Assembly (NCBI GenBank): GCA_022566355.1
Contig: JADFJB010000044.1
Span: 1 to 33,301 of the forward strand
Length of the DNA stretch: 33,301 nt
Source: a candidate division KSB1 bacterium
Lineage (GTDB): Bacteria > Zhuqueibacterota > JdFR-76 > DREG01
Reading direction: 5' to 3'
The notes beneath the pieces were generated by a model that saw only the letters and a list, made by a program, of their open reading frames with translations, was not told the origin of the DNA and did not search any database. The translations under genes and the position numbers were made by a program. Below are positions 7,177-27,095 of the stretch, one piece after another; position 1 is the first letter of the stretch; every line of letters begins with the position of its first letter.

Positions 7177-7275
7177 GGTAGCTCGGGGGTTTTCGGATCG
7201 GCTCTAAGTTATCTGTTTTATACAATCCCCAGTTCACAGTTTACCAGATAACGAATTAAAGGAATGAATATCTTC

Positions 7276-7998
7276 ATGCAAAACTATGATAGTGAATTAA
7301 ACAATTTTACAGAAACCGGTTTCTTTCAAGAAAAAGACGCGGCAATGAAACATCTTCGTGATACCGATGATATTTTAACATCAGAGGGTGTAGATTACTG
7401 CCTGATGTTTGGGACCCTGCTTGGACTTCTGCGTCACAAGGATTTCATTCCATGGGACGATGACCTCGATATTATTATCTTTGATATAGTAAAATTGGAA
7501 AATCGCTGTATTAAAAAATTTAAAGAAAGAGGTTATACCGTCTTACAGGATATTCGCAGGATAAGTCCTTTCCCTAAATTGCCGATTTTCAAACTAAAAA
7601 CACGGTGTGGATACCGCATTTACTCAAATAAAGGTAGTGCTATACCAGGGGTTGGCTGGAAATTCCCATGGCTTGGGGTATGGGAATCTGTGTTAAAAAA
7701 GGAGACCATGACTCTTCCGCCTGAAAAATTCGTCTATAATATCAATGATTTTTTTCCTTTACAACGAAGAACATTTAAAGATTTTTCTGTTATGATTCCT
7801 CAAAACCCTGGAAAAATACTTAATGAATATTTCAGTACAGACAATTGGATGGAATATTGTATGCCTTCTACTTTTGATCACCGGCATTACAAATCTACCG
7901 GATTTCCAGTTGTTAAAAAAACAGTAAATGAGGTATTGCAGTTCTTAGAAATACAAAATAACTTTTTAGCGTTCAGTAAACCATTTTCTGACAATTAA
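7276..7998 (+). CDS. LicD family phosphotransferase
   Basis: LicD proteins transfer a phospho-alcohol (phosphocholine in the best-known cases) from a CDP-activated donor onto a surface glycan. The 240-residue protein has the family core LMFGTLLGLLRHKDFIPWDD followed by DLDIII, with the paired metal-binding aspartates of a nucleotidyltransferase fold. A start at 7276 is preferred because AAAGGA directly abuts the upstream ATG at 7264 but lies twelve bases from this one. It is the first gene of the phosphonate operon, which makes nucleotide-activated 2-aminoethylphosphonate, so transfer of AEP to a glycan is the likely job. The acceptor is unknown. Confidence 0.85.
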   Translation: MQNYDSELNNFTETGFFQEKDAAMKHLRDTDDILTSEGVDYCLMFGTLLGLLRHKDFIPWDDDLDIIIFDIVKLENRCIKKFKERGYTVLQDIRRISPFPKLPIFKLKTRCGYRIYSNKGSAIPGVGWKFPWLGVWESVLKKETMTLPPEKFVYNINDFFPLQRRTFKDFSVMIPQNPGKILNEYFSTDNWMEYCMPSTFDHRHYKSTGFPVVKKTVNEVLQFLEIQNNFLAFSKPFSDN

Positions 7999-8060
7999 AT
8001 ACAGCCCACACCCCTTAATAGGATTTATGGAAACTGATATCTCAAGGAGAATGAATTGAA

Positions 8061-8942
8061 ATGAAGAAAACGACACGATTGAAAAACATGCTATATAGCT
8101 CTGAACTGGAATTTTTAATGGAAGCCCACAATGGATTATCAGCACGAATCGTCGAACAGTCAGGCTTCAAGGGTATTTGGGCGAGTGGACTTTCGATGAG
8201 CGCTGCCCTCGGTATCCGCGATAATAATGAAGCGAGCTGGACACAGGTGCTTGAGACAGTAGAATTTATGAGTGATTCCACCTCTATTCCCATTTTACTG
8301 GATGGCGATACGGGGTATGGTAACTTCAATAATTTTCGCCGGCTTATTAAAAAGATTGAGCAACGTGATATTGCGGGGGTATGTGTAGAAGATAAGATTT
8401 TCCCAAAGACCAATAGCTTTCTAAGTGAGCGTCAACAACTTGCCGGCATAGATGAATTTTGCGGTAAAATTAAAGCCGGGAAAGATACTCAGAAAGACGA
8501 TGATTTCTGTATTATTGCCCGTGTTGAGGCCTTTATTGCCGGATGGGGGTTGGAGGAAACACTGAAGCGGGCTATTGCCTACCATCAGGCAGGTGCAGAT
8601 GCTGTGCTTATACATAGTAAAATTTCAACTTTTGATGAAATCCAGTCATTCCTGAAAGAATGGGGCAATCGTGGGCCGGTGGTCATTGTTCCGACAAAAT
8701 ACTACAAAACCCCAACGACCATATTCAGAGAATTTAATATCAGTCTGGTTATTTGGGCCAACCACTTGATGAGATCCGCAATAACTGCTATGAAGAGAAC
8801 GGCTAACCAGATATACGAGATGCAGTCCCTTGATGGTATTGAAGAAAGCATCGCCACCCTTGCTGAAGTATTTGAATTACAGGATGCGAATGAATTGATA
8901 CAGGCCGAAAAGAAATACCTCCCGGCCATTGAAAGGAATTAA
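8061..8942 (+). CDS. pepM: Phosphoenolpyruvate phosphomutase
   Basis: Converts phosphoenolpyruvate to phosphonopyruvate, forming the C-P bond that starts nearly all phosphonate biosynthesis. The 293-residue isocitrate-lyase-superfamily barrel carries the diagnostic mutase loop [11 protein letters not shown] (residues 110-120), matching the EDKxxxxxNS signature that separates true mutases from lyases. Substrate and metal-binding residues appear in [11 protein letters not shown] (38-48) and [11 protein letters not shown] (81-91). AAGGAG lies upstream of the ATG. The gene is followed three bases later by the decarboxylase that pulls this unfavourable equilibrium forward. No extra N- or C-terminal domain is fused. 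Confidence 0.97.
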
Positions 8943-8945
8943 AAA

Positions 8946-10172
8946 TTGATTAATACCGGAGATTTTTTAGAGCTATGCTTAAACCGTGGTTTCAATTTTT
9001 TTACAGGCACTCCATGCTCATATCTTAAACCAATTATTAATTATGTAATTAGCAACGACGCATTTAGTTTTGTCAATGCCGCAAACGAAGGTGATGCCAT
9101 TGCATTGGCTTGCGGGGCTGTTATGGCAGGCAAAAGAAGCGTTGTCATGTTCCAGAATTCAGGGTTTGGCAATGCTGTAAACCCTTTGACTTCTTTGAGT
9201 TACACATTCAAAATCCCTTTGTTGTTAATAGTTACAATGCGTGGCGAACCGAGTGGCCCCAAAGATGAACCGCAACATGAACTTATGGGAAAAATTACAA
9301 CAGATATTCTTGAATCCATGCAAATCGGATGGTCATACTTCCCAAAATCAATTGAAGAAATCGAGAGTGCCCTTGAAAAGGCAGATGCTTTTATGAGTGA
9401 CAAAAAACTTCCTTTTGCATTTGTCTTGCGCAAAGGGGATATCACACCGTATAAACTAAATTCTCTCGATAAAACCAGATCTCTCCATCCTGCCGGATCA
9501 AATAAAGATAACTTTGATATTCGAAACAATAAAATGCCCACCCGCAACGAAGCCCTGAAAACAATACAGTCAGTATCGGAAGAAGGAACTGCTGTAATAG
9601 CAACGACAGGTTTTACCGGTCGTGAACTTTGTATGCTCGATGACAGAGATAACCAGCTTTATATGGTTGGTTCCATGGGATGCGCCCTTTCAATTGGGAT
9701 CGGGATAGCTATCAACAAACCAGCGTTAAAAGTTATTGTGGTGGACGGAGATGGAGCCCTGCTGATGAGAACAGGCTCTATGGCAGCAACCAGCATGTAC
9801 GCACCCGCTAATTTGATCCATATTCTTTTTAATAACGAAATTCATGAGTCAACAGGGGGGCAGCAGACATTATCAGGTAACATCTCATTTCCGGCAATTG
9901 CAAAGGGTTTTGGCTACAATCATATTTTTTCCACTGACGACCTTAATGTATTTAATAACTTCATATTTAAAGCGATGGTAATGAAAGGCCCCATTTTTAT
10001 TCATCTCAAAACACATCCCGGTGTTCCGAAAAATTTAGGCAGACCATCGGTTAAACCGGAACAGGTAAAAGAAAGATTTATGAAGTATCTGGATAAAAAT
10101 TATATAAAAGAGATTTATGTTCAACGTCCGACAAGCAGTCATATTGGGCGCCGGGATTGGGTCCCGTCTTAA
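8946..10172 (+). CDS. ppd: Phosphonopyruvate decarboxylase
   Basis: Thiamine-diphosphate enzyme converting phosphonopyruvate to phosphonoacetaldehyde and CO2, the irreversible step after PepM. The 408-residue protein starts with TTG; AAAGGA lies just before the PepM stop codon, and the N-terminus MINTGDFLELCLNRGFNFFTG aligns with the family start. The pyrimidine domain has GTPCSYLKP and NAANEGDAIALA with the key glutamate; the diphosphate domain has VVDGDGALLMRTG to ILFNNEIHESTGGQ. The usual C-terminus ends near ERFMKYL, and about 26 further residues run into the start of the next gene, giving a 56-base overlap. Confidence 0.95.
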   Translation: MINTGDFLELCLNRGFNFFTGTPCSYLKPIINYVISNDAFSFVNAANEGDAIALACGAVMAGKRSVVMFQNSGFGNAVNPLTSLSYTFKIPLLLIVTMRGEPSGPKDEPQHELMGKITTDILESMQIGWSYFPKSIEEIESALEKADAFMSDKKLPFAFVLRKGDITPYKLNSLDKTRSLHPAGSNKDNFDIRNNKMPTRNEALKTIQSVSEEGTAVIATTGFTGRELCMLDDRDNQLYMVGSMGCALSIGIGIAINKPALKVIVVDGDGALLMRTGSMAATSMYAPANLIHILFNNEIHESTGGQQTLSGNISFPAIAKGFGYNHIFSTDDLNVFNNFIFKAMVMKGPIFIHLKTHPGVPKNLGRPSVKPEQVKERFMKYLDKNYIKEIYVQRPTSSHIGRRDWVPS

Positions 10173-11997
10173 AGGCAAGCTCAATAACCGTCCTAAAGGA
10201 TTTTTAAAATTGGGGGACATGCCGATTATCGAAGAATCTGTTGCTAAACTTATTCGCGCCGGAATAAATGATATTATCATCGTAACCGGCTATTGTTATG
10301 AATTCTATAATACGCTGGCTGAAAAATACCCTTTTGTTCGAACAGTTTTGAACCCGGAATTTGCGACCACCGGCAGTATGCTTTCACTCTGTACCGCGGC
10401 TTCATATGTAACAAGTGATTTCTTGCTTTTAGAGTCTGACCTGGTTTACGAATATAGCGCGCTCCGGACACTCCAGAATTCTCCAAAAGAAAATTGCATA
10501 TTGCTCTCCGGGCAAACCGGATCAGGCGATGAAGTTTATGTTGGAATCCAGGGTGAAAGAGTCGTCAACATGTCGAAAGAGCGTGATGACATTAAAATTC
10601 TGGGAGGTGAGCTTGTCGGCATTTCTAAAATATCGTTAAAACTATATAATCAGATGCTGGATATTACCAAAGAGAAATGTAAGGATATCTCTCAGTATCA
10701 TTATGAAGATTGTCTCACTGACAGTAGTGATTCGAATGCTATTTATTATGAATGCGTAGAAAATCTGGCATGGATAGAAATAGATCATGAAAACCATCTA
10801 TGCAAAGCCCGTGAAAATATCTATCCGTTAATTGAACAAAGAGATGCTGAAAAAATTTTATCGAAAAGAGTTTCAAGAAATATCCTGCTTAACCCGGGGC
10901 CAGCTACCACTACAAATACTGTAAAATATGCCATGGTTGTTGACGATATCTGTCCGAGAGAACATGAGTTTGGCGAGCTTGTAAACGGTATCAAACAGGA
11001 TTTGGTCAGGATTGTTCATGGCGAAGATATGTATGAAGCAGTGCTTTATGCTTCGTCAGGTACGGGCGCTGTTGAAGCCGTTTTAAGTTCGGTTGTTCCA
11101 CATGATAAATCGGTGCTTATCATAAATAATGGCGCTTACGGTAAAAGGATGCAGCAGATTTGCGACGGCTATGGCATTTCCCACATCGATTACAATATAA
11201 CCTGGGGTGACCCCGTAGATTGCAAAAAGATTGAAATAATTCTCGAGCAGCATAAAAAGGATATATCTCATATTGCTTTTATTCATCATGAGACGACCGT
11301 AGGAATCCTGAATGATATCACGGCAATTTCAAATATCGCCCTTCAATTTGGCGTTGAAATAATTGTAGATGCCATGTCCTCTTTCGCGGGTATCCCAATA
11401 AATATTAAGAGTTCTGAAATTCATTATCTTATTGCCTCGGCAAATAAATGTATCCAGGGAATGGCGGGTCTTAGCTTTGTGATCTGTAAAAAGGAATCCC
11501 TTGAAAAGACTAAGGAGATCAAACCAAGAAATTTCTATTTTAATCTTTATCAGAACTACTCCTTTTTTACTCAAAAACATGAGATGCAATTCACACCGCC
11601 AGTCCAGATTTTCTATGCACTGAGGCAGGCGATAAATGAATATTTTCTGGAAACAGAACAGCGTCGGGAACAGCGGTATACCGAAATGTATGAGGTTCTT
11701 GAAAAGGGTCTGCAAGGTATCGGTTTCCACTTTCTTATCGAGAAAAAATATCGTGCAAAAATATTGACGGCAATTATCGAGCCTGAAGATGAAAATTACA
11801 ATTTTAATGAAATGCATGACTTTCTTTACAAGCGGAGTTATACAATTTACCCGGGGAAAGGCGCAAAACAGAACACTTTTCGTCTTGCAAATATGGGGGC
11901 CATAACAAAAAATGACATTACAAGATTTCTCGGTTCTTTGAAAGAATATCTTGTGGTGAACGACATAAAACTCTTTCCAGTTAAGCAGTCAGTATAA
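10117..11997 (+). CDS. pntC: Fused 2-aminoethylphosphonate cytidylyltransferase / AEP transaminase (PntC-PhnW type)
   Basis: A 626-residue two-domain enzyme. Residues 1-245 are a sugar-nucleotide-type nucleotidyltransferase: LGAGIGSRLKG, RPKGFLKLGDMPI, ESDLVYEY with D108 and WIEIDHENHL with D224 as metal ligands. Residues 250-626 are a fold-type I aminotransferase of the PhnW class: LLNPGPATTT, SSGTGAVEAV, VDAMSSFAG with D419, and SANKCIQGMAGLSF with K444 as the PLP lysine. Together they would make 2-aminoethylphosphonate from phosphonoacetaldehyde and activate it as CMP-AEP, as described for PntC fusions. The start overlaps the previous gene by 56 bases, suggesting translational coupling. 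An NTP other than CTP cannot be excluded from sequence alone. Confidence 0.9.
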   Translation: MFNVRQAVILGAGIGSRLKGKLNNRPKGFLKLGDMPIIEESVAKLIRAGINDIIIVTGYCYEFYNTLAEKYPFVRTVLNPEFATTGSMLSLCTAASYVTSDFLLLESDLVYEYSALRTLQNSPKENCILLSGQTGSGDEVYVGIQGERVVNMSKERDDIKILGGELVGISKISLKLYNQMLDITKEKCKDISQYHYEDCLTDSSDSNAIYYECVENLAWIEIDHENHLCKARENIYPLIEQRDAEKILSKRVSRNILLNPGPATTTNTVKYAMVVDDICPREHEFGELVNGIKQDLVRIVHGEDMYEAVLYASSGTGAVEAVLSSVVPHDKSVLIINNGAYGKRMQQICDGYGISHIDYNITWGDPVDCKKIEIILEQHKKDISHIAFIHHETTVGILNDITAISNIALQFGVEIIVDAMSSFAGIPINIKSSEIHYLIASANKCIQGMAGLSFVICKKESLEKTKEIKPRNFYFNLYQNYSFFTQKHEMQFTPPVQIFYALRQAINEYFLETEQRREQRYTEMYEVLEKGLQGIGFHFLIEKKYRAKILTAIIEPEDENYNFNEMHDFLYKRSYTIYPGKGAKQNTFRLANMGAITKNDITRFLGSLKEYLVVNDIKLFPVKQSV

Positions 11998-12016
11998 TAT
12001 TCATAAACTTCACTTT

Positions 12017-12751
12017 ATGTATCGTGAGGCGCTGTTGGAAAATCACTTAAAAAAAATAGACCTGAATGTTACTCAATATCCGAAACTGGCAAACAAATCA
12101 AGTGATGGCGCTTTCAATTATCTGGTTTTACGCCGCTTGTCTGCTCACATAACAAGCTTCTGTTTGCAGCGGGGTATCTCCGCAAATTCAGCAACTATTA
12201 TTGATTTCATTCTCGCCCTTTTTGCAGCATTGAGTTTGTACATGGGATATTTATTTATTGGCGTGACGCTAATTCAGCTCTTTGGCGTCTGGTCCTGTGT
12301 GGATGGGGAGATCGCCCGCGTGACAAAAAGTACCAGCAGGCTTGGTGATTTTTATGATACAATGATTGACAGGGTTGCCGAATACCTTATTACCCTGGCA
12401 CTCTTGCTTCATATGTATAAGGTAGCGCCAGACGTCCACTGGGGCACGATTTTTTTTGCTTATATGGGTACAATATTTTTTATTACTGCGTCATCGGAAA
12501 AGTTTCGTTCTGTTTTCCATAAAAATTATCCCAAAAATGACACCGAGCTGTTTTTTCGCTGGCTTTGTGCAGGTAGCGACACACGACTTTTCTATATTTC
12601 CCTGGGTATTATTGGGTATGCCATTAGTGGTTATGATACTATAATTTATTGGCTAATAATTTTGCAGACCGTTTTCCTTGCTTTTAATTTTATATTCCGG
12701 TTATGGAAAATACCAAAACTAATAAAATCTGCTAAAGATTTTCCTGAGTAA
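12017..12751 (+). CDS. CDP-alcohol phosphatidyltransferase family membrane protein
   Basis: A 244-residue integral membrane enzyme with about six helices. The family moves a phospho-alcohol between a CDP-linked donor and an alcohol acceptor. The motif region reads SCVDGEIARVTKSTSRLG then DFYDTMID: D96, G97, A100, R101, G110, D114 and D118 match the canonical DxxDGxxARx8Gx3Dx3D, but the first aspartate is Ser93. Its position right after the CMP-AEP-forming fusion suggests it transfers AEP onto a lipid such as diacylglycerol to make a phosphonolipid. No clear ribosome site is visible. The Ser93 change might alter the donor or acceptor, or lower activity. Confidence 0.88.
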   Translation: MYREALLENHLKKIDLNVTQYPKLANKSSDGAFNYLVLRRLSAHITSFCLQRGISANSATIIDFILALFAALSLYMGYLFIGVTLIQLFGVWSCVDGEIARVTKSTSRLGDFYDTMIDRVAEYLITLALLLHMYKVAPDVHWGTIFFAYMGTIFFITASSEKFRSVFHKNYPKNDTELFFRWLCAGSDTRLFYISLGIIGYAISGYDTIIYWLIILQTVFLAFNFIFRLWKIPKLIKSAKDFPE

Positions 12752-12758
12752 ATTTGTT

Positions 12759-13463
12759 ATGCAACAATCTCAAACATATAGTTCATTGCAGGTATTTCTG
12801 GACAGCTTAAAGGAGAACTGCCTGCTTCTTGCACGGCATGGTGAAAGCGACTGGAATTCCATTGACCTTATTCAAGGGCAGCAAGACAGACCACTCAGCC
12901 CTGAAGGGTTTAATCAAAGGAAAAACCTCTTTTTCTTATTGCAGTCCGTACCCATTGCACGGATATTCACAAGTGCACTTCAACGGACTATCCAGACAGC
13001 AATACCGATCAGCGATGATAAGAAAATTCCTCTGGAAAAAATGCCGGAATTAAATGAGGCAAAACTTGGAATTTTTGAAGGCCAAAACCGGTCTTTCCCT
13101 TCTGATGAATTTTCCAAAAAGATGTACCGCTCATTTTTAGACGATGAAATTAACGTTATACTACCTGGAGGAGGAGAAAACCTGAAGATGGTTGACAAGA
13201 GAATTGCGAAGCCGGTTGCAATTTTTTTGGACGCCGTTAGTTCGGGACATATTCTTATTGTTGGGCATCGTAACGTTAACAAAATGATAATGAGAACTAT
13301 TTTGGGTCTTTCCTTTAATGATGGATACCGGGTTGAACACGAGAATAATTGTCTTTATGTTTTTGAACCAAAAAGTCAGAAGGCTTTTTTTTTAAGCATT
13401 GAGAATCCTGGCGCTTTTATTAAAATTGAACAAGGATATGTAAAAATAGGAATGACCAGTTGA
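12759..13463 (+). CDS. Histidine phosphatase superfamily protein
   Basis: A 234-residue phosphoglycerate-mutase-like enzyme. The catalytic motif LARHGESDWN has R26-H27-G28-E29, R76 lies in TSALQRTIQTA, the acid/base glutamate region is LNEAKLGIFEG (about residues 98-108), and the second histidine is H170 in LIVGHRN. The family removes phosphate from many small substrates, so the target is not predictable by sequence. It begins seven bases after the CDP-alcohol phosphatidyltransferase stop and is the last gene of the operon, followed by a hairpin. A role in dephosphorylating a pathway intermediate or acceptor is only an inference from this position. Confidence 0.88.
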   Translation: MQQSQTYSSLQVFLDSLKENCLLLARHGESDWNSIDLIQGQQDRPLSPEGFNQRKNLFFLLQSVPIARIFTSALQRTIQTAIPISDDKKIPLEKMPELNEAKLGIFEGQNRSFPSDEFSKKMYRSFLDDEINVILPGGGENLKMVDKRIAKPVAIFLDAVSSGHILIVGHRNVNKMIMRTILGLSFNDGYRVEHENNCLYVFEPKSQKAFFLSIENPGAFIKIEQGYVKIGMTS

Positions 13464-14558: not shown

Positions 14559-15113
14559 ATGAGAAAGTCAATATTAATTTTAGTGACGATTTTTTTTACT
14601 GCTGGCTTCTTAGTCCAGCCCCGCCTCGAGGCGCAAATCTCTATCTCCAAAAGTGTACTAAGCAATGGCGGTGTCGTTATCAACAATGGCGAATTTACCA
14701 TGCTGGGAACGGTCGGACAACCATTCGTTGGTGTTGTAGGAAATTCAACCCATGTGAACCGGGTCGGTTTCTGGTATCTTACCGATCAAAAAGTAGCGAC
14801 AGATGTTGCTGATGACCCAAACCTTAGCCTACCGACTGAATTCGGTCTTGACCAAAACTATCCGAACCCCTTCAACCCTGAAACTGAAATTCCATTTCAA
14901 CTGCCGCAAGAATCCGATGTTGGTTTAAAGATATTCAACATTCGCGGCCAGCTTGTGCGCACACTCATACAAGCTGATTACACGCCTGGATTTCACAGCA
15001 TTCGCTGGGATGGCAAGGATAACAATGGTACTTCTGTTTCGAGTGGATTGTATATTTACCAGTTCCTGGCTGGAGAGTTTGTCCAGGTCCGGAAGATGAG
15101 TTTGCTGAAATAG
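14559..15113 (+). CDS. Small secreted protein with FlgD-like / type 9-style C-terminal sorting domain
   Basis: A 184-residue exported protein. The signal peptide covers about residues 1-26 (ending LEAQ). Residues 27-75 form a short GGVVINNGEFTMLGTVGQP module that ends in RVGFWYL. From about residue 90 there is an FCB-type sorting domain: FGLDQNYPNPFNPETEI, then LKIFNIRGQLVRTL, WDGKDNNGTSVSSGLYIYQF and a terminal KMSLLK. Such domains are related to FlgD Ig folds and, in Bacteroidota, direct type IX secretion. The small module has no known function. AAGGAGA lies eight bases before the ATG. This gene is one of the best clues to the host lineage. Confidence 0.85.
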   Translation: MRKSILILVTIFFTAGFLVQPRLEAQISISKSVLSNGGVVINNGEFTMLGTVGQPFVGVVGNSTHVNRVGFWYLTDQKVATDVADDPNLSLPTEFGLDQNYPNPFNPETEIPFQLPQESDVGLKIFNIRGQLVRTLIQADYTPGFHSIRWDGKDNNGTSVSSGLYIYQFLAGEFVQVRKMSLLK

Positions 15114-15422: not shown

Positions 15423-17623
15423 ATGAAAACAAAAAATTGTTTCCGTATTCTTGCATTCATGCTGCTATTGATTTTACCGGGACTTGTCCTGGGGTAAATT
15501 CCCAAAACCATGAGTTACCAGGGTGTCTTGATCGATGCGGAAGGTAATCCGGTGCCAGATGGCAACGTCGTGCTAACCTTCAAGATCTACGACACCGCCA
15601 CAGATGGTGAGTCGCTCTACCAAGAGACACAAAACGAAGTGAATGTGGCCGGCGGCATCTTCAGCGTCATCATCGGCAGCACAAATCCCTTGAATCTACC
15701 CTTTGACAAGAAGTATTGGCTTAGCATAACCGTAGGTGCGGAAGGTTCTGAGCTTACTCCAAGGATAGAACTGACATCCTCGGCGTATAGTTTGAATGCC
15801 CAGTCGATAGTGGATAATGCCGTGAGCACAGCAAAGATTCAGGATGGCGCGGTTACTGACGCAAAGATCGCCGCCGGTGCGGTTGACGCCGATAAAATTG
15901 CCGATAACGCGGTCACCAGCGAAAAGATCGCCGGGGGTCAAGTGGTTAAAAGCCTCAATGGTTTGACCGATGATGTAACGATTGAAGCCGGGAATAATGT
16001 GACGATTACTCAGAGTGGCGATACATTGACCATAGGTGCAACAGGCGGAGCCGGGACCGGAGACGGCCATTCACTTGATGCCGCCGATGGCGACCCGACG
16101 GATGTGGTTTTTGTGGATAATGACGGTAATGTATTCATTGGCATCACAAGTCAAGAGTTCACTTCAGTTAACGGTACCACTAACATAAGGGCCCCCTCGG
16201 CATTGATATCAACTCCAACCAGGACTTTGCACATAAATACACCCCTGCAGGCATCATGGACGGAGGGGTAATCAAAATCACAGTCCCCACTAGTTGGAGC
16301 TCCCCTGGTGGCGATCATGAAACCGAAGTTAGAGATGATGGCATCACCACAACTGGTAATATCGTCCTTCAAGATGGCATTGGCACAAGTGAATATAATA
16401 TGTCCAACTCCGACGGAGTCATTAAGATTACATACGGATCTGGCGGACCCACTACCGAAGGGAAAATCGAAATCGCAGTTCCGACTAGTTGGAGCTCCCC
16501 TGGTGGCGATGATGAAACCGAAGTTAGAGAGGATGGCATCACCACCACTGGTAATATCGCCCTTCAAGATGGCAATGACACAAGTGAATATAATATGTCC
16601 AACTCCGCCGGGGTCCTTAAGTTTACATACGCATCTGGTACACCCCATACCGAAGCTACCGAAGGGACAATCGAATTCGCATACGCCGCTAATTTTCAAG
16701 CCCCCATCACAGCTGAAGGTGGCATTAAAATCAGCAACAAAGGAGACGAAAACGCTCCCGCCGGGACGGTCAGTGGGGACATAGAGGTGGTTGGTGAAGT
16801 CTTTGCCAAGAGTTTTCATGTGGTAGATTTCGTTGGCAATCAACTAAGCAATTTCTTTTCGGATGGCAGTTCATCGCAGGAAGGAAAGGCTACCTTTAAA
16901 AGTGGCATAAAAATGACGAGGGGAAGTCTTGAATTCCCTGATGGAACAAAACAAACAACTGCGGGAGGAGGAGACAACAAGGGTGACATGACGGTCAAGG
17001 GTGAGATTCTTGCCAAAAGCTTTCACGTGGTCAGCTTTGATAGTTCGGGAAACGTTACCGATACTCTCACCAGTTTCAATTCAGATGGCACTTCACTGCA
17101 CAAGGGGAAGGAGACCTTTAAGGAGGACGTCGTAATCTTTGGTTCCTTATCTGTCCAGGGCTTCATAGAAAAAACCGGTGGAGGTTTCAAAATTGACCAT
17201 CCGATTGATCCCGCCAACAAATATCTCAATCACGCCTACGTTGAAAGTCCGGACATGATGAATGTCTACAACGGTAATGTTATCCTGAATCCTGATGGTG
17301 AAGCGATTGTGGAACTGCCCGAGTGGTTCGAAGCCCTCAACAAAGATTTTCGTTATCAACTCACTTGCATCGGTGGCTTTGCTCCAGTATTTTTCGCTGA
17401 AGAGATCTCAAACAACCGCTTCAAGATTGCAGGTGGCAAGTCTGGGATGAAGGTTTCATGGCAGGTAACCGGCATTCGCAAGGACGCTTAAGCAGAGCAG
17501 AATCGAATGCAAGTGGAAGTAGAGAAACCAGACCACGAACGTGGCAAATATCTGTATCCAAAGACTTATGGTATGCCGGAAACAAAAGGGATAAACCCTA
17601 AACTAATAATCGAAAATAAATAG
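15423..17623 (+). pseudogene. Broken gene for a large exported head/stalk surface protein
   Basis: Reading from the ATG with GGAGG upstream gives a signal peptide (MKTKNCFRILAFMLLLILPG), then TAA at 15495 in the same frame as the mature protein, which continues IPKTMSYQGVLIDAEGNPV. In relatives this junction reads QIPKTxSYQG, so a CAA-to-TAA change is likely. Around 16184-16200 the frame shifts by the GCCCCC run, from NGTTNIRAP to LGIDINSNQDFAHKYTPAG. A second in-frame TAA at 17489 follows GIRKDA, after which homology resumes as AEQNRMQVEVEKPDHERGKY until TAG at 17621. The stalk has DAKIA/DKIADNAV repeats and the C-terminus has the conserved HAYVESPDMMNVYNGNV domain. Shorter frames restarted at 15510 and 16256 are the visible pieces. 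Confidence 0.78.
16265..16654 (+). repeat. Two tandem 195-bp (65-residue) repeats inside the surface-protein gene
   Basis: The unit starting near 16265 recurs at 16460 with only scattered differences, each encoding PTSWSSPGGDxETEVRxDGI followed by TTTGNIxLQDG and SEYNMSNSxGV. A third, partial and diverged unit starts near 16664 (GTIEFAYAANFQ). The pattern suggests recent in-gene duplication of a beta-rich stalk module. Confidence 0.8.
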
Positions 17624-19746: not shown

Positions 19747-20243
19747 TCTGTGTGTCAAGTATATAATCACCCACCTTTATTTATTCTTACCAACGCCAAA
19801 AACCCTCGACAAATCAAAATATCCCTTAAATTTATCCCAATTGAGAATATCGTTCTTTTTTAACATTGTGTATTAACACAATCCTAATCTAACTACAACT
19901 TAAGATGACCAGCCGCAACACCAAGCGTGGATCATTCAGGTTCTGCGGATAACAAACCCGGCGCGGTTGACGTGTGCTCTTTTTAAAAGTAATAAATCTG
20001 AGCAAATTCATTTTCTAAAATTTATTTGTTTGATTGATCAATTTGTTTTGTTACTTTTACTATCACACGTTATCTAAATTAAAAAGAAAAAGGAATGCTA
20101 ATTCGTATCTGACCGAAAATCATCAATGTCATCCCTGCAATCTTTAGGCCGGAATCTCGTTATTTCAGGCTGGAGATTCCCGCTAGAAACATGCGGGAAT
20201 GACAGAAAAGGGTATTTTCGTTCAAATTCTAGTTAAGAAAATC
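19747..20243. other. Intergenic region before the arsenosugar cluster
   Basis: About 500 AT-rich bases without a gene. It contains a small perfect hairpin (ATTGTGT, ATTA, ACACAAT at 19865-19882) and a dispersed inverted-repeat element at 20128-20203. The promoter of the arsenosugar cluster should be here. No tRNA or riboswitch was recognised. Confidence 0.5.
20128..20203. repeat. Dispersed inverted-repeat intergenic element (copy 2)
   Basis: Starts GTCATCCCTGCA and ends TGCGGGAATGAC, imperfect inverted ends (10 of 12). The interior GGAGATTCCCGCTAGAAACA resembles REP-like elements common between genes of related genomes. It shares its outline with the element at 7072-7176. An apparent upstream ATG for the next gene (20199) lies inside this repeat and is therefore unlikely to be the real start. 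Confidence 0.7.
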
Positions 20244-21599
20244 ATGACAACCTATTCAGTCATTATCCCAACCTGGAACGAAGAAGAAACCATTGGCGAC
20301 TGCATCAACAGCATTCGAACTGCAAATCAAGAAACTGAAATTTTATTGTCTGACGGTGGTAGTTGGGACAAAACAATCCGAATTGCCAAAGAGCTGAACT
20401 GTAAAGTGATTTCTTCTCCAAAAGGCCGTGGCATCCAAAGCAATGTCGGGGCTTCATGTGCCTCAGGCTCTATCCTTTTATTTTTACATGGAGATACACA
20501 ACTTCCGCCTGATGCTTTTGAGATCATTGATAAACAATTTGAAGATCAGTCAGTACAAATCGGCACCTTCCGCATTTCATTTGATCACAATCACTGGTTA
20601 TTGAATTTCTATGCCTGGTTCACCCAATTCGATTTTATTTTCTCACGTTTTGGAGATCAATGCATTATCGTCCGGCGCAGGTTTTTTGATAATCTTGGTG
20701 GATTTCCCAAATGGAAATTATTCGAAGATGTCGACTTCCTGCGAAAAGCACGAAGAGTTACAAAAATACATTCGTTGCCGGCAAAAGTAAAAACCTCCGC
20801 CCGTCGCTTCTTAAAGAACGGCATTTTGCGCCAGCAAATCCAAAACGGTTGGCTTATTCTATTGTATTTTTTAGGATTTGGCGGCAATCGATTATATTTG
20901 AAATACGAAAAGATAGAAGCGCTTCAGCAAGGGACATCATTGATTGTCTTCGCACGCTATCCGCGCCAGGGAAAAGTGAAGACCAGGCTCGCAAGCACAA
21001 TCGGTAACTTATTGGCTGCAGAATTTTATAGAATCTGCTGCGAGCATATCTTTGCAATCTGCAGAAAATTAAAACCAGAGATGACAATTAATTTATTCTA
21101 TGCTGACAGCGAAGATGCCGAATCGATAAGAAATTGGCAAGGATCGGATTTTTATCTTTTACCGCAAATAGGCGATGATTTGGGTGAGAGAATAAAAAAC
21201 GCTTTCCAAACAATTTTTGATCGAGGTACTGAAAAAGCCATTATTATAGGAACAGATGTTCCCGAGCTATCCGGAGAGATTATCAAACAGGCAGAAAACG
21301 CACTTGATATCCATGACCTGGTTATTGGTCCCTGCCCGGATGGTGGATATTATCTTTTGGGAATGAAATCGGTTAATAAAGAGTTATTTAATGGGGTAAC
21401 TTGGAGTACAGATCGTGTTTTTGAGGAAACAATGAAGAAAGCAAAGGTAAACAAATTATCTGTTTATGAGTTGCCGATATTTGCAGATATCGACACCGAA
21501 GACGAACTGCTGCAATGGGCAGATACAAACAAAACTCATAAGAACCAGGCAATGATTCAATTTGTGAAAAAGCTTAGATCACCTGTGGCGGAAGGATAA
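20244..21599 (+). CDS. Fused glycosyltransferase (TIGR04283 family 2 + TIGR04282/DUF2064)
   Basis: A 451-residue two-domain protein. Residues 1-220 are a GT-A family 2 glycosyltransferase of the TIGR04283 type: VIIPTWNEEETIGDCI, LLSDGGSWDKT, KGRGIQSNVGA and LHGDTQLPPDA with the DxD-like site. Residues 230-430 are a DUF2064/TIGR04282 domain: LIVFARYPRQGKVKTRLA, GDDLGERIKNAF, GTDVPELSG and GPCPDGGYYLLG. The two domains are usually separate neighbouring genes. This pair is a marker of arsenosugar and related gene clusters, where it is proposed to add or shape the sugar. The start at 20244 is used because the longer frame begins inside a repeat element. Confidence 0.9.
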   Translation: MTTYSVIIPTWNEEETIGDCINSIRTANQETEILLSDGGSWDKTIRIAKELNCKVISSPKGRGIQSNVGASCASGSILLFLHGDTQLPPDAFEIIDKQFEDQSVQIGTFRISFDHNHWLLNFYAWFTQFDFIFSRFGDQCIIVRRRFFDNLGGFPKWKLFEDVDFLRKARRVTKIHSLPAKVKTSARRFLKNGILRQQIQNGWLILLYFLGFGGNRLYLKYEKIEALQQGTSLIVFARYPRQGKVKTRLASTIGNLLAAEFYRICCEHIFAICRKLKPEMTINLFYADSEDAESIRNWQGSDFYLLPQIGDDLGERIKNAFQTIFDRGTEKAIIIGTDVPELSGEIIKQAENALDIHDLVIGPCPDGGYYLLGMKSVNKELFNGVTWSTDRVFEETMKKAKVNKLSVYELPIFADIDTEDELLQWADTNKTHKNQAMIQFVKKLRSPVAEG

Positions 21600-21604
21600 T
21601 ACCT

Positions 21605-22399
21605 TTGAACTTAAAAGTGACTCGAAACTTATTTTTTATTTGTTCAATGACGCTCTTGTCCAGCTATGCTTATGCCAATGGATCAAATTTGATATTCACG
21701 AACTTGCTACAAAAACATGTTCAAAACGGTCTTGTGAACTATTCAAGGTTATGCTCAGATCCAAAGCTCAACGAATATATCAATCAGCTCTCGGAGACGA
21801 ATCCGGATACGATCAGGGATAGAAACGATTTATTGGCATTTTGGATCAACGCTTATAATGCATTCACATTAAAAGTGATCTGCGATAATTATCCACTCAA
21901 ATCCATTAACGATTTACACTTTGGCGGGCTGGTGATAGGAACAGTTCTCAAAAAGACGGTTTGGGATAAAAATTTCATAGAGATCGACAAAAAGAAATAC
22001 TCGTTAAATAAAATTGAGCATGAAATCATCAGAAAAAAATTTAATGACCCCCGCGCTCACTTTGCCCTGGTTTGTGCGTCTCTCGGGTGTCCGTCACTTT
22101 TAAACGAAGCGTTCGTCGGAGACAAATTAGACGAACAATTAGAACAGCAAGGGAACCGATTTCTGCAAGATTCAACTAAAAATGTTTTCGATATCGAAAA
22201 AAAGATAGCCAGGATTTCTAAAATATTCGATTGGTTCAAGAATGATTTTGGGAATAACAAAAAGGAAAGGCTTCTCTATTTATCCAGGTTTTTACCTGAG
22301 GAAATTGCAATTGAGATTCGGCTGAATCCGGAACAATGGAAAGTGAAACACACCAAGTACAATTGGAATTTAAACGAAATAAAGGAAGCAACAAATTAA
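21605..22399 (+). CDS. DUF547 domain protein, exported
   Basis: A 264-residue protein starting with TTG, with GGAAGGA seven bases upstream inside the end of the previous gene. A signal peptide covers residues 1-25 (ending AYANG). The DUF547 core follows: HVQNGLVNYSRL, NDLLAFWINAYNAFTLKVIC, and HFALVCASLGCPSLLNEAF with conserved Cys residues. DUF547 shows distant similarity to papain-like/transglutaminase folds, but no reaction is established for this type. Its tight coupling to the glycosyltransferase fusion indicates a role in the same pathway, probably in the periplasm. Confidence 0.88.
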   Translation: MNLKVTRNLFFICSMTLLSSYAYANGSNLIFTNLLQKHVQNGLVNYSRLCSDPKLNEYINQLSETNPDTIRDRNDLLAFWINAYNAFTLKVICDNYPLKSINDLHFGGLVIGTVLKKTVWDKNFIEIDKKKYSLNKIEHEIIRKKFNDPRAHFALVCASLGCPSLLNEAFVGDKLDEQLEQQGNRFLQDSTKNVFDIEKKIARISKIFDWFKNDFGNNKKERLLYLSRFLPEEIAIEIRLNPEQWKVKHTKYNWNLNEIKEATN

Positions 22400-22419
22400 T
22401 GATCCGAAGGAGAAAATAA

Positions 22420-22755
22420 ATGCACTATTTTGAGTCCGATGACCTAAAAAAATTTGGTGAAGTTGGAAAATTCAGTGGTGATTTGATGAAAAAATTCTTT
22501 ACATATTATAATGCCGCAACCAGTGAAGAAGGAGCGTTATCAAAAAGAGAAAAGGCATTGATTGCATTAGCCGTGGCACATTCAAAACGATGCCCATATT
22601 GCATTGACGCATTTACCACTGCTTGCCTGGAGGCCGGCTCGAACCCCGAACAAATGACCGAAGCCATTCACGTGGCCAGTGCCATGGAGGCTGGGGTTAC
22701 ACTGGTGCATGGCGTCCAGATGCAAAACGTGATGAAGAAAACCGGTGCACTATGA
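22420..22755 (+). CDS. Arsenosugar-associated carboxymuconolactone-decarboxylase/AhpD-like protein
   Basis: A 111-residue CMD-family protein with the redox motif CPYCIDAF (CxxC, residues 58-61) followed by HVASAMEAGVTLVHG. It matches the small peroxidase-like proteins found beside ArsS and ArsM. CMD/AhpD proteins are thiol-based peroxidases or disulfide reductants, so it may keep arsenical thiols or the enzymes reduced. AAGGAG lies eight bases before the ATG. It sits 20 bases after the DUF547 gene in the same operon. Confidence 0.9.
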   Translation: MHYFESDDLKKFGEVGKFSGDLMKKFFTYYNAATSEEGALSKREKALIALAVAHSKRCPYCIDAFTTACLEAGSNPEQMTEAIHVASAMEAGVTLVHGVQMQNVMKKTGAL

Positions 22756-22792
22756 TTATTATTAACCATAAAAGGTGATATTTGTGTTTTCT

Positions 22793-22875
22793 GTCATTCT
22801 GATCCCGCCTTGGTGGGAGAAGAATCTCCATCTAAACATATTTTGCCCTTCGACTCCGCTCAGGGCGCTACTTCA
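22793..22875. repeat. Dispersed intergenic repeat element (copy 3)
   Basis: Starts GTCATTCTGATCCCGCC with a small CCCGCC-TT-GGTGGG hairpin (22804-22817), then AGAAGAATCTCC, and ends with CTTCGACTCCGCTCAGGG. These words are typical of short repeats scattered between genes of FCB genomes. It separates two genes of one cluster, so it may act as an attenuator or simply be tolerated there. Confidence 0.6.
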
Positions 22876-22932
22876 CCCTTTTTGCAGTTTAAACATTTTC
22901 TAATATGTTATTTGAACAACTAGGAGACATGA

Positions 22933-23961
22933 ATGGGTGAACCAATAATCTTAGCGCCTGAAATCGAGGCTCACGAAGATTCCAAATTCAATTTTAAGAA
23001 AATAATCAGAAACCATAAGTTAGACCTCAAACCAGTTTCGATTGAGACTTTGCAGGTGAATATTACCAAACTTTGCAACCAGGCCTGTTTGCATTGCCAT
23101 GTTGACTCCGGTCCCAAACGCACTGAGCAAATGGACCTCAAGACAGTCGATCGTTGCCTGGAAATTCTGCAAAACCATGATTCGATTAAAAACCTGGATG
23201 TAACCGGGGGCGCTCCGGAATTGAGTCCTTATTTTGATTATATGGCTATTGAAGCCCGCAAAATGAACAAACACGTAATGGTCCGGCATAATCTTACCGT
23301 AATCGCGGATGGCAATCCCCAAACCGGAGAATCTAAAGATTATTTACCCGAATTTTTTGCCCGGCATCAACTTGAAGTTATTTCTTCACTACCCTACTAC
23401 CAGGAATATTTCACCGATAAACAGCGCGGCAAAGGTGTCTTCGAAAAAAGTATCGAAAGCTTGAAATTGCTCAATGAACAGGGATATGGAAAAGAAAATA
23501 CAAATTTAAATTTGAACCTGGTTTACAATCCCGTCGGTGCTTTTCTACCAGCTGCCCAGGAAAGTTTGGAGGCTGATTTCAAACGAGAATTACTGGCCAA
23601 GTTTGGGATCGTTTTTAACAACCTATACGTCATCACAAATATGCCCATCCACCGTTTTAAGACCCAGTTAAAACAACTTGGCGGTTATGAAGAATATATG
23701 ATAAAACTGGTTAACGCTTTTAATCCGGTCGCTGCTGAGGGGGTAATGTGTCGTTCTCTAATAAGCGTCAGTTATGATGGTAGGATTTTTGATTGTGATT
23801 TTAATCAAATGCTTGAGATGCAGGTTTATAGTGGCAATCTTAGTACGGTCTTTAATTTCGATTACGATGATTTGATGAGCCGTAATATCAGGTTTGCCGC
23901 TCATTGCTTCGGTTGCACAGCCGGCGCCGGCAGCAGTTGTGGTGGGGAAATAGCAAGCTGA
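22933..23961 (+). CDS. arsS: Arsenosugar biosynthesis radical SAM protein ArsS
   Basis: A 342-residue radical S-adenosylmethionine enzyme. The 4Fe-4S motif is C48, C52 and C55 in KLCNQACLHCHVDSG. Downstream are DVTGGAPELSP and NLVYNPVGAFLPAAQ, both typical of the ArsS/TIGR04167 group. The C-terminus HCFGCTAGAGSSCGG (C325, C328, C336) is the second Cys cluster; some homologues carry selenocysteine in this region, but here the codons are ordinary cysteine. ArsS is proposed to attach a 5'-deoxyadenosyl group to dimethylarsenite, the first sugar-forming step. AGGAG lies just before the ATG. Confidence 0.93.
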   Translation: MGEPIILAPEIEAHEDSKFNFKKIIRNHKLDLKPVSIETLQVNITKLCNQACLHCHVDSGPKRTEQMDLKTVDRCLEILQNHDSIKNLDVTGGAPELSPYFDYMAIEARKMNKHVMVRHNLTVIADGNPQTGESKDYLPEFFARHQLEVISSLPYYQEYFTDKQRGKGVFEKSIESLKLLNEQGYGKENTNLNLNLVYNPVGAFLPAAQESLEADFKRELLAKFGIVFNNLYVITNMPIHRFKTQLKQLGGYEEYMIKLVNAFNPVAAEGVMCRSLISVSYDGRIFDCDFNQMLEMQVYSGNLSTVFNFDYDDLMSRNIRFAAHCFGCTAGAGSSCGGEIAS

Positions 23962-23973
23962 AACTAATGCTAA

Positions 23974-24309
23974 ATGGATTGGTCTTCGCTTAAAGATTGG
24001 TTTTTGGAGCTCGGTGAGCAATATGGAGTCAACCCGATTATTTTTGGCGCAATATACGTCGGTGCAATTCCATTTTTTACATTATCCATAGCCTGGTTGG
24101 TCAATAACTTTCGTAAGAAAAAATCGATTGTTCTTCCAGCCCTGTTGGCCGGTTTTTTCTTTATTTCGGCCTACCTGTATCTCATCATTGTTGGTAAGAA
24201 CGTTCCATTTTGGGTTTATTCTTTTGTAGCTTTTCTTGTTATTTTTAGCACCTGGTCAACTATTAAGAAAGTAAAATCAAGAATTCATGAGGAGGCGAAT
24301 GAAGTATGA
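23974..24309 (+). CDS. Small membrane protein of the arsenosugar cluster
   Basis: A 111-residue protein with three hydrophobic segments (about residues 21-44, 50-73 and 76-95) separated by the basic stretch NNFRKKKS. I do not recognise a named family. It starts 12 bases after arsS and overlaps the flavoprotein gene by 11 bases, so it is translationally coupled to both. A membrane anchor or transport accessory role is possible but not shown. Confidence 0.75.
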   Translation: MDWSSLKDWFLELGEQYGVNPIIFGAIYVGAIPFFTLSIAWLVNNFRKKKSIVLPALLAGFFFISAYLYLIIVGKNVPFWVYSFVAFLVIFSTWSTIKKVKSRIHEEANEV

Positions 24310-25783
24310 TTATGACATGATCGTTATCGGCGGCGGCGCTGGTGGTCTAACCGCAGCTGGAATGTCAGTTTCATTTGGTGCCAAGACCGCATTGATCGAA
24401 GCCAAAAAATTAGGCGGCGACTGCACGTGGTATGGCTGCGTCCCAAGTAAAACCTTGTTGAAAGCCGCAAAAATTGCCCACTATTTCAAAACAGCAAATC
24501 GTTATGGATTAGAAGCCTCAGAAGTTAAATTTGATTTTGCTAAAGTGATGGAACATGTTCATCAAACCCAGGAAGAAGTTTATAGAGATGCGGATGACCC
24601 TGCAATTTATCGGAAAATGGGGATCGATGTCCTGGCCGGGACTGCAAAATTTCTCGACAATCATAGAATTGAATTCGATGAAAATGGTGCTACTTCCAGG
24701 CAGTTGTCGTCAAGATACTTCGTAATAGCAACCGGAAGTTCGGCTGTTGTTCCGCCCATCGAAGGTCTTTCGCGTGTCGATTATTTAACAAATGAAACCC
24801 TATTCAACTTATCCAAACTTCCATCAAAATTGATTGTTATCGGAGCCGGTCCGATCGGTATCGAAATGGCCCAGGCATTCATTCGATTGAATTCTTCGGT
24901 AACCGTCATCAATCGGGCAGAAAGAATATTAACAAGAGACGATCGCGAACTAGCTGTCATCCTGCAGGAAAAGCTTCAAGGAGAAGGAATCCGGTTTGTC
25001 TTAAAGTCTGCGGTAAAAAGCATTAACCAAAAGAACGGAACTATCTCTGTTATTACAGAAGATTCATCCAAACAGACGACTTTAACGATTGATGGCGATA
25101 CTGTCCTGTTATCTGTCGGTCGCAAAGCGAACATCGCCAATTTAGGTTTGCAGGAAGCTGGAATTGAATCCAACAAAAGGGGAATTGTGGTTAATGATAA
25201 ATGTCGGACTTCAGTAAAAAATATTTATGCTGTCGGAGATGTGGCCGGTAGATTCCAGTTCACACATTTTGCTGAACACATGGCAAAGGTGGCTACCAGC
25301 AATGCACTATTACACTTCCCCATGACGCTGGATTCCAAACACATTACCTGGTGTACGTTCACCGAACCGGAGATGGCCCATGTCGGTGCCTCTGAAAATG
25401 AATTAAAGCAAAAAGGAATATCTTACGAGCTTTATAAGTTTCCCTTCAATAAAATTGATCGAGCCATTACTGAGAACGAAAAAATCGGATGGATCAAAGT
25501 TTATGCAAAAAAATTCAATGGCAAAATTTATGGAGTCAATATTTTGGGAACTAACGCCGGTGAAATGATTGGTGAGTATGCCTTAGCCATGCGAAATGGG
25601 GTTACCCTGAGACAAATGGCAGATACGATCCATCCTTATCCCACTTATGTTTTGGGAAATCGGCGGGCTGCGGACCAATGGTATGTAAGAAAGCAATCGA
25701 GATCGTTTGTATGGCTGTTGCAAAAACTATTTCACTATCATGGCCAATTACCGGATACAAGTGATCCGCAAAGGATAATTTAA
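24299..25783 (+). CDS. MerA-like FAD-dependent disulfide oxidoreductase
   Basis: A 494-residue flavoprotein of the class I pyridine-nucleotide disulfide oxidoreductases. It has the FAD motif IVIGGGAGGLTAA, the redox disulfide C42-C47 in LGGDCTWYGCVPSKT, the NAD(P) motif IVIGAGPIGIEMAQ and YAVGDVAG. At the position of the usual catalytic His-Glu pair it reads IHPYPTYVLGNRRAA, with Tyr as in mercuric reductase and no Glu. It lacks an N-terminal heavy-metal domain and the C-terminal vicinal cysteines of MerA. The start at 24299 is used because GAGGAGG precedes it. In this cluster it may reduce an arsenical or a thiol; that is inference. Confidence 0.9.
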   Translation: MKYDYDMIVIGGGAGGLTAAGMSVSFGAKTALIEAKKLGGDCTWYGCVPSKTLLKAAKIAHYFKTANRYGLEASEVKFDFAKVMEHVHQTQEEVYRDADDPAIYRKMGIDVLAGTAKFLDNHRIEFDENGATSRQLSSRYFVIATGSSAVVPPIEGLSRVDYLTNETLFNLSKLPSKLIVIGAGPIGIEMAQAFIRLNSSVTVINRAERILTRDDRELAVILQEKLQGEGIRFVLKSAVKSINQKNGTISVITEDSSKQTTLTIDGDTVLLSVGRKANIANLGLQEAGIESNKRGIVVNDKCRTSVKNIYAVGDVAGRFQFTHFAEHMAKVATSNALLHFPMTLDSKHITWCTFTEPEMAHVGASENELKQKGISYELYKFPFNKIDRAITENEKIGWIKVYAKKFNGKIYGVNILGTNAGEMIGEYALAMRNGVTLRQMADTIHPYPTYVLGNRRAADQWYVRKQSRSFVWLLQKLFHYHGQLPDTSDPQRII

Positions 25784-25810
25784 TTAGAAGGTTGTATTTG
25801 GAGATTTAGT

Positions 25811-26926
25811 TTGAGTTTATTGTTCATCGGTATTATAATCGGAGTACTTTTTCTCGCCTACGCCAATGGCGCCAATGATAATTTCAAAGGTGTAGCAACG
25901 CTATTTGGCAGTGATACAACAAATTATAAAACTGCAATTATCTGGGCAACGATAACCACTTTTGCCGGCAGCATTTGCTCTATCTTTCTGGCCAAAATAC
26001 TTCTCAATAAATTTACTGGCAAAGGGTTGGTGCCTGATTCAGTGGTCACTTCACCGGAGTTTGTTTTTGCTGTGGTAATCGGAGCAGCGGCAACTGTTTT
26101 GTTTGCAACATTCATCGGCTATCCTATTTCCACAACCCATTCTATCACCGGGGCATTGGTCGGTAGCGGGTTGATGGCATCATCGGCCGGGGTGGACCTG
26201 GCTAAACTGGGCAGCACATTCTTTCTGCCATTATTATTAAGCCCTTTCATCGCGTTAACCCTGGCAGCCATGCTATATATCCTTTTTCATTTCGTCCGTT
26301 TAAAGCTTGGCATCACTTGCCAATCGATTGCTTTCATTCGCAAAGAGACCGAAGCCGTTCCTTCAGTGGTTCAATCATCCGGTGTGGCAATAAATACTTC
26401 GACAAAATTAAAATTCGGCATCTCGGAGGGAAACGGACAGGAAAAGTATTCAGGATCGTTGCTGGGTATTAGATTTCAAAAAATGGTGGATGTTGCACAT
26501 TTTATCAGTTCCGGCGCTGTTAGTTTTGCCAGAGGATTAAATGACACACCGAAGATCGTCGCGTTGTTATTGGGATTACAAGTGATGGGAATGCCATCGA
26601 GCATGATGATTGTCGCTATTGCCATAGCTCTTGGAGGACTTCTAAACGCTAAAAAAGTAGCGATTACAATGAGTAAAAAAATCAGCACTTTTAATGATGG
26701 ACAGGGACTAACCGCTTTGCTCGTTACCAGTTTCCTGGTCATCTTTTCAAGCGTGTTGGCCTTTCCGGTCTCGACGACGCATGTATCCGTCGGATCAATA
26801 ACCGGAATCGGATTGGTTAATCGAACTGCTAATATGGGAATGATCTCAACCATTGTCCTGTCTTGGGTTCTTACTTTACCAATGGCTGCCGGGATCAGCG
26901 CTATGACCTATTTAATAATCAGTTAA
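25811..26926 (+). CDS. pit: Pit-family inorganic phosphate transporter
   Basis: A 371-residue polytopic inner-membrane protein starting with TTG, with TTGGAGA eight bases upstream. The two inverted halves each have the family signature: AYANGANDNFKG (residues 17-28) and GAVSFARGLNDTPKI, plus repeated YPISTTHSITGALVG and FPVSTTHVSVGSITG. Pit carriers move phosphate with cations and usually admit arsenate. It lies between the flavoprotein and arsM genes. It may supply arsenate to the pathway or restore phosphate; sequence cannot tell. Confidence 0.93.
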   Translation: MSLLFIGIIIGVLFLAYANGANDNFKGVATLFGSDTTNYKTAIIWATITTFAGSICSIFLAKILLNKFTGKGLVPDSVVTSPEFVFAVVIGAAATVLFATFIGYPISTTHSITGALVGSGLMASSAGVDLAKLGSTFFLPLLLSPFIALTLAAMLYILFHFVRLKLGITCQSIAFIRKETEAVPSVVQSSGVAINTSTKLKFGISEGNGQEKYSGSLLGIRFQKMVDVAHFISSGAVSFARGLNDTPKIVALLLGLQVMGMPSSMMIVAIAIALGGLLNAKKVAITMSKKISTFNDGQGLTALLVTSFLVIFSSVLAFPVSTTHVSVGSITGIGLVNRTANMGMISTIVLSWVLTLPMAAGISAMTYLIIS

Positions 26927-26947
26927 TTTTGAAAAAACAATAATGCA

Positions 26948-27044
26948 GTCATTTCGAGGAGTTTACGACGAGAAATCTTTTAATCCATACGAGAATAAAT
27001 TGATTGAGATAAGATTTCTCCACGCTTCGCATGTTCGAAATGAC
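26948..27044. repeat. Dispersed inverted-repeat intergenic element (copy 4)
   Basis: Perfect 10-base ends GTCATTTCGA (26948-26957) and TCGAAATGAC (27035-27044), with a second perfect inner pair GAGAAATCTT (26970-26979) and AAGATTTCTC (27011-27020). Non-coding, 97 bases. The outline matches short palindromic elements common in Bacteroidota-like genomes. Confidence 0.8.
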
Positions 27045-27095
27045 ATTCTGTTAATTTTGCAAATGTTCATTTAGTTAATTTATTAAGGAGTTGGA

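Follow-up and report, generated by a model that had tools for sequence, protein, structure and literature searches.

Analysis of open reading frames (ORFs) and protein families in a 33,301-nucleotide stretch of contig JADFJB010000044.1 from a candidate division KSB1 bacterium (the whole stretch is referred to here as the window) identified six co-directional, tightly packed genes at 7264-13463, hereafter the cassette, which are predicted to make an activated phosphonate and attach it to an acceptor. All lie on the + strand: licD (7264-7998), for a LicD-like cytidylyl-linked head-group transferase; pepM (8061-8942), for a phosphoenolpyruvate (PEP) mutase that converts PEP to phosphonopyruvate; ppd (8946-10172), for a phosphonopyruvate decarboxylase with phosphonoacetaldehyde as product; a fusion gene (10117-11997) joining an N-terminal 2-aminoethylphosphonate (AEP) cytidylyltransferase (PntC) to a C-terminal AEP transaminase (AEPT); a CDP-alcohol phosphotransferase gene (CDP-AP, 12017-12751) with the variant signature SxxDGxxAR...GxxxDxxxDR; and HisP (12759-13463), for a CobC-like branch 1 histidine phosphatase. 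The intergenic gaps from licD to HisP are 62, 3, -56, 19 and 7 nt, the negative value being a 56-nt overlap of the fusion gene with ppd.

A preliminary description of this DNA had listed the same six families in this order and direction, and all six were found with hidden Markov model (HMM) support. Its genes and order are correct and its start needs adjustment: the licD ATG is at 7264, and the 7276 given there is the next in-frame ATG. The proposed operon organisation is borne out by the gaps and overlap and by an order kept in other genomes, and the genome-neighbourhood comparison suggested as a check identifies a real unit, with the gene set conserved in order elsewhere. Promoter and terminator scans returned sites no more numerous than in shuffled sequence, and an Rfam scan of the window matched zero RNA families.

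Phosphonate half and spread of the cassette

PepM scores 384.2 bits against the PEP mutase equivalog TIGR02320 (cut-off 319.6), is closest to the PEP mutase structures 1pym/1m1b (E = 4.7e-127), carries a loop that fits EDKxxxxxNS, and falls below the cut-off of the phosphonopyruvate hydrolase model. Ppd reaches 405 bits against the phosphonopyruvate decarboxylase model TIGR03297 (cut-off 312.5). The fusion matches TIGR03301 (PhnW-AepZ transaminase) through its transaminase part (412 bits, cut-off 360.8) and PF12804 (MobA-like NTP transferase) at 42.9 bits (cut-off 27), and its residues 4-612 align end to end with chain residues 2-609 of Tde1415 (6PD1/6PD2, E = 7.5e-164). In this Treponema denticola protein, N-terminal PntC makes CMP-AEP with a kcat/KM of 6.8e4 M-1 s-1 and the C-terminal part is an AEP transaminase (Rice et al. 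2019, PMC6697681). R15, K25, K153, E104 and E196 of Tde-PntC, linked to catalysis or AEP binding, with E104 and E196 holding the primary amine of AEP (PMC6697681), are all identical in the window fusion (5/5). The fusion is a known enzyme type, that of Tde1415, and not a new one.

Very probably, then, PepM would convert PEP to phosphonopyruvate, Ppd would decarboxylate it to phosphonoacetaldehyde, the AEPT domain would aminate the aldehyde to AEP, and the PntC domain would combine AEP with cytidine triphosphate (CTP) to give CMP-AEP; this route, whose chemistry is already known, is secured by orthology to characterised enzymes. The same series of intermediates had been foreseen, and the equivalog scores and the Tde1415 match back it. 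The steps after CMP-AEP have been called enigmatic (PMC6697681). What becomes of this compound is the step of bacterial phosphonate tailoring that is still open, and for it the cassette offers candidate transferases and a phosphatase as a fixed, compact and transferable set.

All six genes recur in the same order in L008, from another family of the host phylum (identity: PepM 87, Ppd 78, fusion 82, CDP-AP 79, HisP 81 and LicD 78%), and in L009, from Desulfobacteraceae (PepM 81, Ppd 71, fusion 79, CDP-AP 72, HisP 76 and LicD 70%); three further Desulfobacteraceae/Desulfobacterales genomes (L010; L012 with L014; L013) have parts of it on shorter contigs. RpoB identity is 67% between the host and the L008 genome (G000-G069) and 50% between the host and the Desulfobacteraceae genome (G000-G083), compared with 70-87% for the cassette. 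The cassette edges are sharp, with no flanking genes common to window and relatives except one distant oxidoreductase pair. Because cassette identity exceeds that of RpoB and the flanks are unshared, these comparisons indicate that the six genes are one horizontally moved cassette, shared between unrelated bacteria and phyla. In marine bacteria, pepM clusters are already known to be transferred frequently (PMC8931226).

The fusion has a strong full-length match in just 1 other of 82 own-phylum genomes, and the CDP-AP subtype of the cassette, defined below by a serine, was found in 2/82 own-phylum genomes, 1/395 sampled genomes of the Desulfobacteraceae phylum and 3/392 sampled Planctomycetota genomes. 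Assembly contamination was ruled out as a cause, since three independent genomes carry the cassette, on contigs of 33, 105 and 193 kb. There is no compositional trace of transfer, with a G+C content of 39.4% in the cassette and 38.1 and 40.4% in the flanks. No member of the CDP-AP family was found in viral contigs, a search of plasmids gave a single distant match, and the fusion has no close relative on plasmids or phages, the best being a Sulfitobacter set at 28%.

In L008, the fusion gene (L008:10001-11881, equal to G069:C79:28227-30104) contains a single in-frame TAA near the start of the transaminase half, which divides it into ORFs 10001-10846 and 10886-11881 and may reflect either a genuine split or a base error. 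Directly upstream of one Desulfobacteraceae copy (L012:2604-6500) lie genes for an inositol-phosphate synthase, an IPCT-DIPPS-like bifunctional protein, an HD/DUF4202 protein and a PfkB kinase, which suggests inositol metabolism near the cassette.

Variant CDP-AP and its partner enzymes

The CDP-AP is a class I enzyme by family score (PF01066, CDP-OH_P_transf; 36.8 bits, cut-off 22) and keeps seven of the eight signature residues of D1xxD2GxxAR...GxxxD3xxxD4, a motif described as absolutely conserved (PMC4634129). The exception is D1, which is Ser93. Serine occupies this position in every CDP-AP of the cassette, or of the licD-CDP-AP-HisP trio described below (WSCVDGE[IV]AR). Among the distinct motifs compared, 6 have Ser and 21 have Asp at D1, and these other motifs (21/21) include five from the host genome and those of other Ppm clusters. 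Asp63, in the helix preceding the signature, is found in all Ser-type CDP-APs and only in those, the others having Ser, Gly, Asn or other residues. The remaining seven signature residues are invariant in all homologues of this enzyme across phyla, at 56-79% identity. The simplest reading of the loss of D1 and gain of Asp63 is a relocated metal ligand in a putatively rearranged metal site, and not a dead enzyme. The cassette CDP-AP is a natural exception to a signature held absolute, and tests metal binding in a large membrane enzyme family.

AF2299, DIPP synthase and the phosphatidylinositol phosphate (PIP) synthases are six-helix enzymes with soluble, phosphorylated acceptors. By sequence and by fold, the latter from a weak model, the cassette CDP-AP is closest to AF2299, IPCT-DIPPS and the PIP synthases, and not to the choline/ethanolamine phosphotransferases CHPT1/CEPT1; it reaches none of the NCBIfam equivalog cut-offs for DIPPS (75.7 of 580 bits), PIPS (51 of 170) or AIPS (59 of 180). 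An Arg directly after D4 (R119) is shared by all six distinct trio or cassette motifs and by the DIPPS/PIPS types, and by none of the canonical CDP-APs of other Ppm clusters. Its MtPIPS equivalent, R94, is crucial in that enzyme and is reported to be conserved in CDP-APs that use inositol phosphate (PMC6506517). Further along, R190 is invariant and aligns with an Arg of DIPPS-type enzymes, being equated with MtPIPS R155 by motif and not by direct alignment; S159-xx-K162-x-R164 has the same spacing as S132/K135/R137 of MtPIPS; and R228 is invariant in the family, with no Arg opposite in the DIPPS-type rows (the third acceptor Arg of MtPIPS is R195). The acceptor is probably phosphorylated, as judged from the nearest structures, R119, R190 and the S159/K162/R164 spacing, and an acceptor of the type marked by Arg after D4 would explain the adjacent phosphatase.

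LicD scores 61.6 bits against PF04991 (cut-off 22.6), with its best stretch in the catalytic block, FGTLLGLLRHxDFIPWDDDLDII, which is invariant in five cassette homologues. HisP scores 133 bits against PF00300 (His_Phos_1; cut-off 21.7), and its catalytic R26, H27 and H170 are invariant in five homologues; against the alpha-ribazole phosphatase CobC model TIGR03162 it gives 93.1 bits, short of the cut-off of 162.9.

Proposed attachment module and competing explanations

One Planctomycetota locus (L011) contains licD, the fusion, CDP-AP and HisP, with pepM and ppd not adjacent and no PepM match in its draft genome. Two further Planctomycetota loci (L055:9825-14005 and L056:9168-13349) have licD, CDP-AP and HisP only, at 52-60% identity, immediately after the genes for a PntC-like nucleotidyltransferase and a CobD-like pyridoxal phosphate enzyme. 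The former keeps Glu equivalents of E104 and E196 but not K153 of Tde-PntC, and the latter comes nearest to the threonine-phosphate decarboxylase CobD, with 177 bits against a cut-off of 291. PepM searches of Planctomycetota genomes G082, G813 and G644 gave no match, an absence that is suggestive only, as these are drafts. Because the trio is kept together without pepM, ppd and pntC-aept, LicD, CDP-AP and HisP would act together as an attachment module. The head-group supply appears swappable, judging by gene content, between AEP and an amino-alcohol phosphate such as phosphoethanolamine in L055/L056. Phosphoethanolamine is the phosphate isostere of AEP, and the L055/L056 operon could be the equivalent, for phosphoethanolamine, of the phosphonate cassette. 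Such natural variants without phosphonate genes provide a built-in comparison for the attachment module.

In the di-inositol phosphate (DIP) pathway, DIPP synthase is followed by a phosphatase. With PIP synthases, too, a phosphate is left behind for removal by a second enzyme (PMC4634129, PMC9246714). In parallel with PIP synthase and PIP phosphatase, or DIPP synthase and its phosphatase, the CDP-AP would couple a CMP/CDP-linked donor with an acceptor that is phosphorylated and of the inositol-phosphate type. HisP would then remove the acceptor phosphate from the product, making the step irreversible; LicD would transfer the AEP of CMP-AEP onto a glycan or glycolipid hydroxyl. On balance we lean towards a mobile phosphonyl-tailoring (Pnt) cassette with such a two-step CDP-AP/HisP reaction on a phosphorylated acceptor, in which CMP-AEP is narrowly favoured over CDP-diacylglycerol as the CDP-AP donor. 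The surface- or acceptor-tailoring purpose foreseen in the preliminary description is supported. A broader and more tentative proposal is that LicD, Ser-type CDP-AP and HisP may form an undescribed portable attachment module with interchangeable suppliers (of AEP, or of a phosphoethanolamine-type head group that a CobD-like decarboxylase and a PntC-like cytidylyltransferase would produce), a metal site that uses Asp63, and an inositol-phosphate-like phosphorylated acceptor trimmed by HisP.

Several points weigh against this two-step scheme. The CDP-AP has a weak AlphaFold model (mean predicted local distance difference test score, pLDDT, 60), whose fold matches are only supportive; HisP reaches no specific family cut-off, superfamily membership alone being safe; and the LicD acceptor cannot be told from sequence. 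Inositol-1-phosphate synthase (INO1) is present in 7/7 cassette or trio genomes tested, which speaks for the scheme, but the count has no phylum baseline and is only permissive, and in the host genome it sits beside another CDP-AP and may serve ordinary inositol lipids; on these grounds inositol phosphate is not claimed as a proven acceptor. In CHPT1, Ala in place of any of the four aspartates leaves <20% activity (PMC10182977), and the cassette enzyme has no D1. This loss would also fit a CDP-AP that is a catalytically dead partner, with LicD as the sole transferase, given that the supposedly absolute D1 bridges both Mg2+ in CHPT1 (PMC10182977). A dead enzyme, however, would be expected to drift, and the invariance of the seven other signature residues across phyla, with Asp63 co-conserved, makes this the least probable of the explanations considered.

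A rather unlikely, though more credible, alternative is that the CDP-AP makes a lipid acceptor, joining CDP-diacylglycerol to a phosphorylated alcohol in the manner of PIP synthase, after which HisP would dephosphorylate the lipid and LicD alone would add AEP from CMP-AEP to its head group, yielding a phosphonylated glycolipid. The PIPS/AIPS similarity (51-59 bits), the MtPIPS-like spacing of K162/R164, the retention of the trio when the head-group supply changes, and the sole NCBIfam match of LicD, to diacylglycerol cholinephosphotransferase Mf1 (56.7 bits, below the cut-off of 225), are all consistent with it; however, the best family score of the CDP-AP is to the DIPP-synthase domain (75.7 bits), where the donor is a soluble CDP-alcohol, and the genome already has other CDP-APs, one beside INO1. 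The preliminary description had taken the two transferases as a sign that AEP is attached to both a glycan and a lipid, or of a choice between them, which is possible and not best supported, given that the CDP-AP is near AF2299/DIPPS/PIPS, has R119 after D4 and lacks D1. Close to that claim is a Kennedy-type scheme, in which the CDP-AP would move AEP from CMP-AEP to diacylglycerol to form a phosphonolipid, LicD would serve a glycan and HisP would have a side function. We consider it improbable: further Ppm clusters of the Desulfobacteraceae phylum (L039-L045) do contain canonical CDP-APs, and in Sulfitobacter one is a neighbour of AEPT and of a phosphocholine-type cytidylyltransferase, but those enzymes keep D1 and lack the Arg after D4, the reverse of what the cassette enzyme shows; the latter is also not closest to CHPT1/CEPT1, and HisP is kept in every locus whose contig extends far enough past CDP-AP.

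Known systems and neighbouring genes

The cassette resembles the Pnt pathway of Tde1415 (PMC6697681) in its Ppm, Ppd and AEPT logic, the two-domain fusion, the catalytic and AEP-selecting residues and the nearby LicD-like gene, and differs from it in combining a variant CDP-AP with a histidine phosphatase in a compact unit that moves between phyla; the main text of the Tde1415 paper names no CDP-alcohol transferase or phosphatase (PMC6697681). With the Lic pathway of CDP-choline and LicD glycan decoration it shares CMP activation of the head group and a LicD-family transferase as the next step, whereas its phosphonate head group is made de novo, choline import and kinase genes are absent, and CDP-AP and HisP are additional. 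PIP synthase with PIP phosphatase, and IPCT-DIPPS (AF 4MND) with its phosphatase, are like it in the Arg after D4, the phosphorylated acceptor and the subsequent dephosphorylation, a reaction that is predicted for the cassette; unlike them, it has Ser for D1, the gained Asp63, a CobC-like histidine phosphatase and LicD in the unit. The Bacteroides phosphatase for PIP is BT_1525, with PgpA homology (PMC9246714). Clusters L039-L045 also combine PepM, Ppd, AEPT and PntC with a CDP-AP, but this is canonical, the shared enzymes are 35-49% identical, and nothing in them matches the LicD or HisP of the cassette. In the literature collection searched, no paper dealt with LicD together with CDP-alcohol phosphatidyltransferase. 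The cassette is a variant of the known Pnt pathway: the steps to CMP-AEP are known, and the attachment half contains the unusual CDP-AP.

Elsewhere in the window, a short secreted protein encoded at 14559-15113 (+) carries a sorting domain for type IX secretion (TIGR04183, score above the cut-off), in keeping with a Fibrobacterota-Chlorobiota-Bacteroidota (FCB)-type host. The product of 15510-16271 (+) resembles the N-terminal domain of the mosaic adhesive trimer fibres of Bdellovibrio weakly and below the cut-off, and the 411-aa ORF after it has no Pfam match. An arsenosugar biosynthesis cluster occupies 20199-28067 (+), encoding a TIGR04283/TIGR04282 glycosyltransferase fusion, a DUF547 protein, a TIGR04169 peroxidase-like protein, the radical SAM enzyme ArsS (TIGR04167, 415 bits), a MerA/lipoamide-dehydrogenase-like oxidoreductase, a PHO4 transporter and an arsenosugar ArsM (NF038099, 558 bits).

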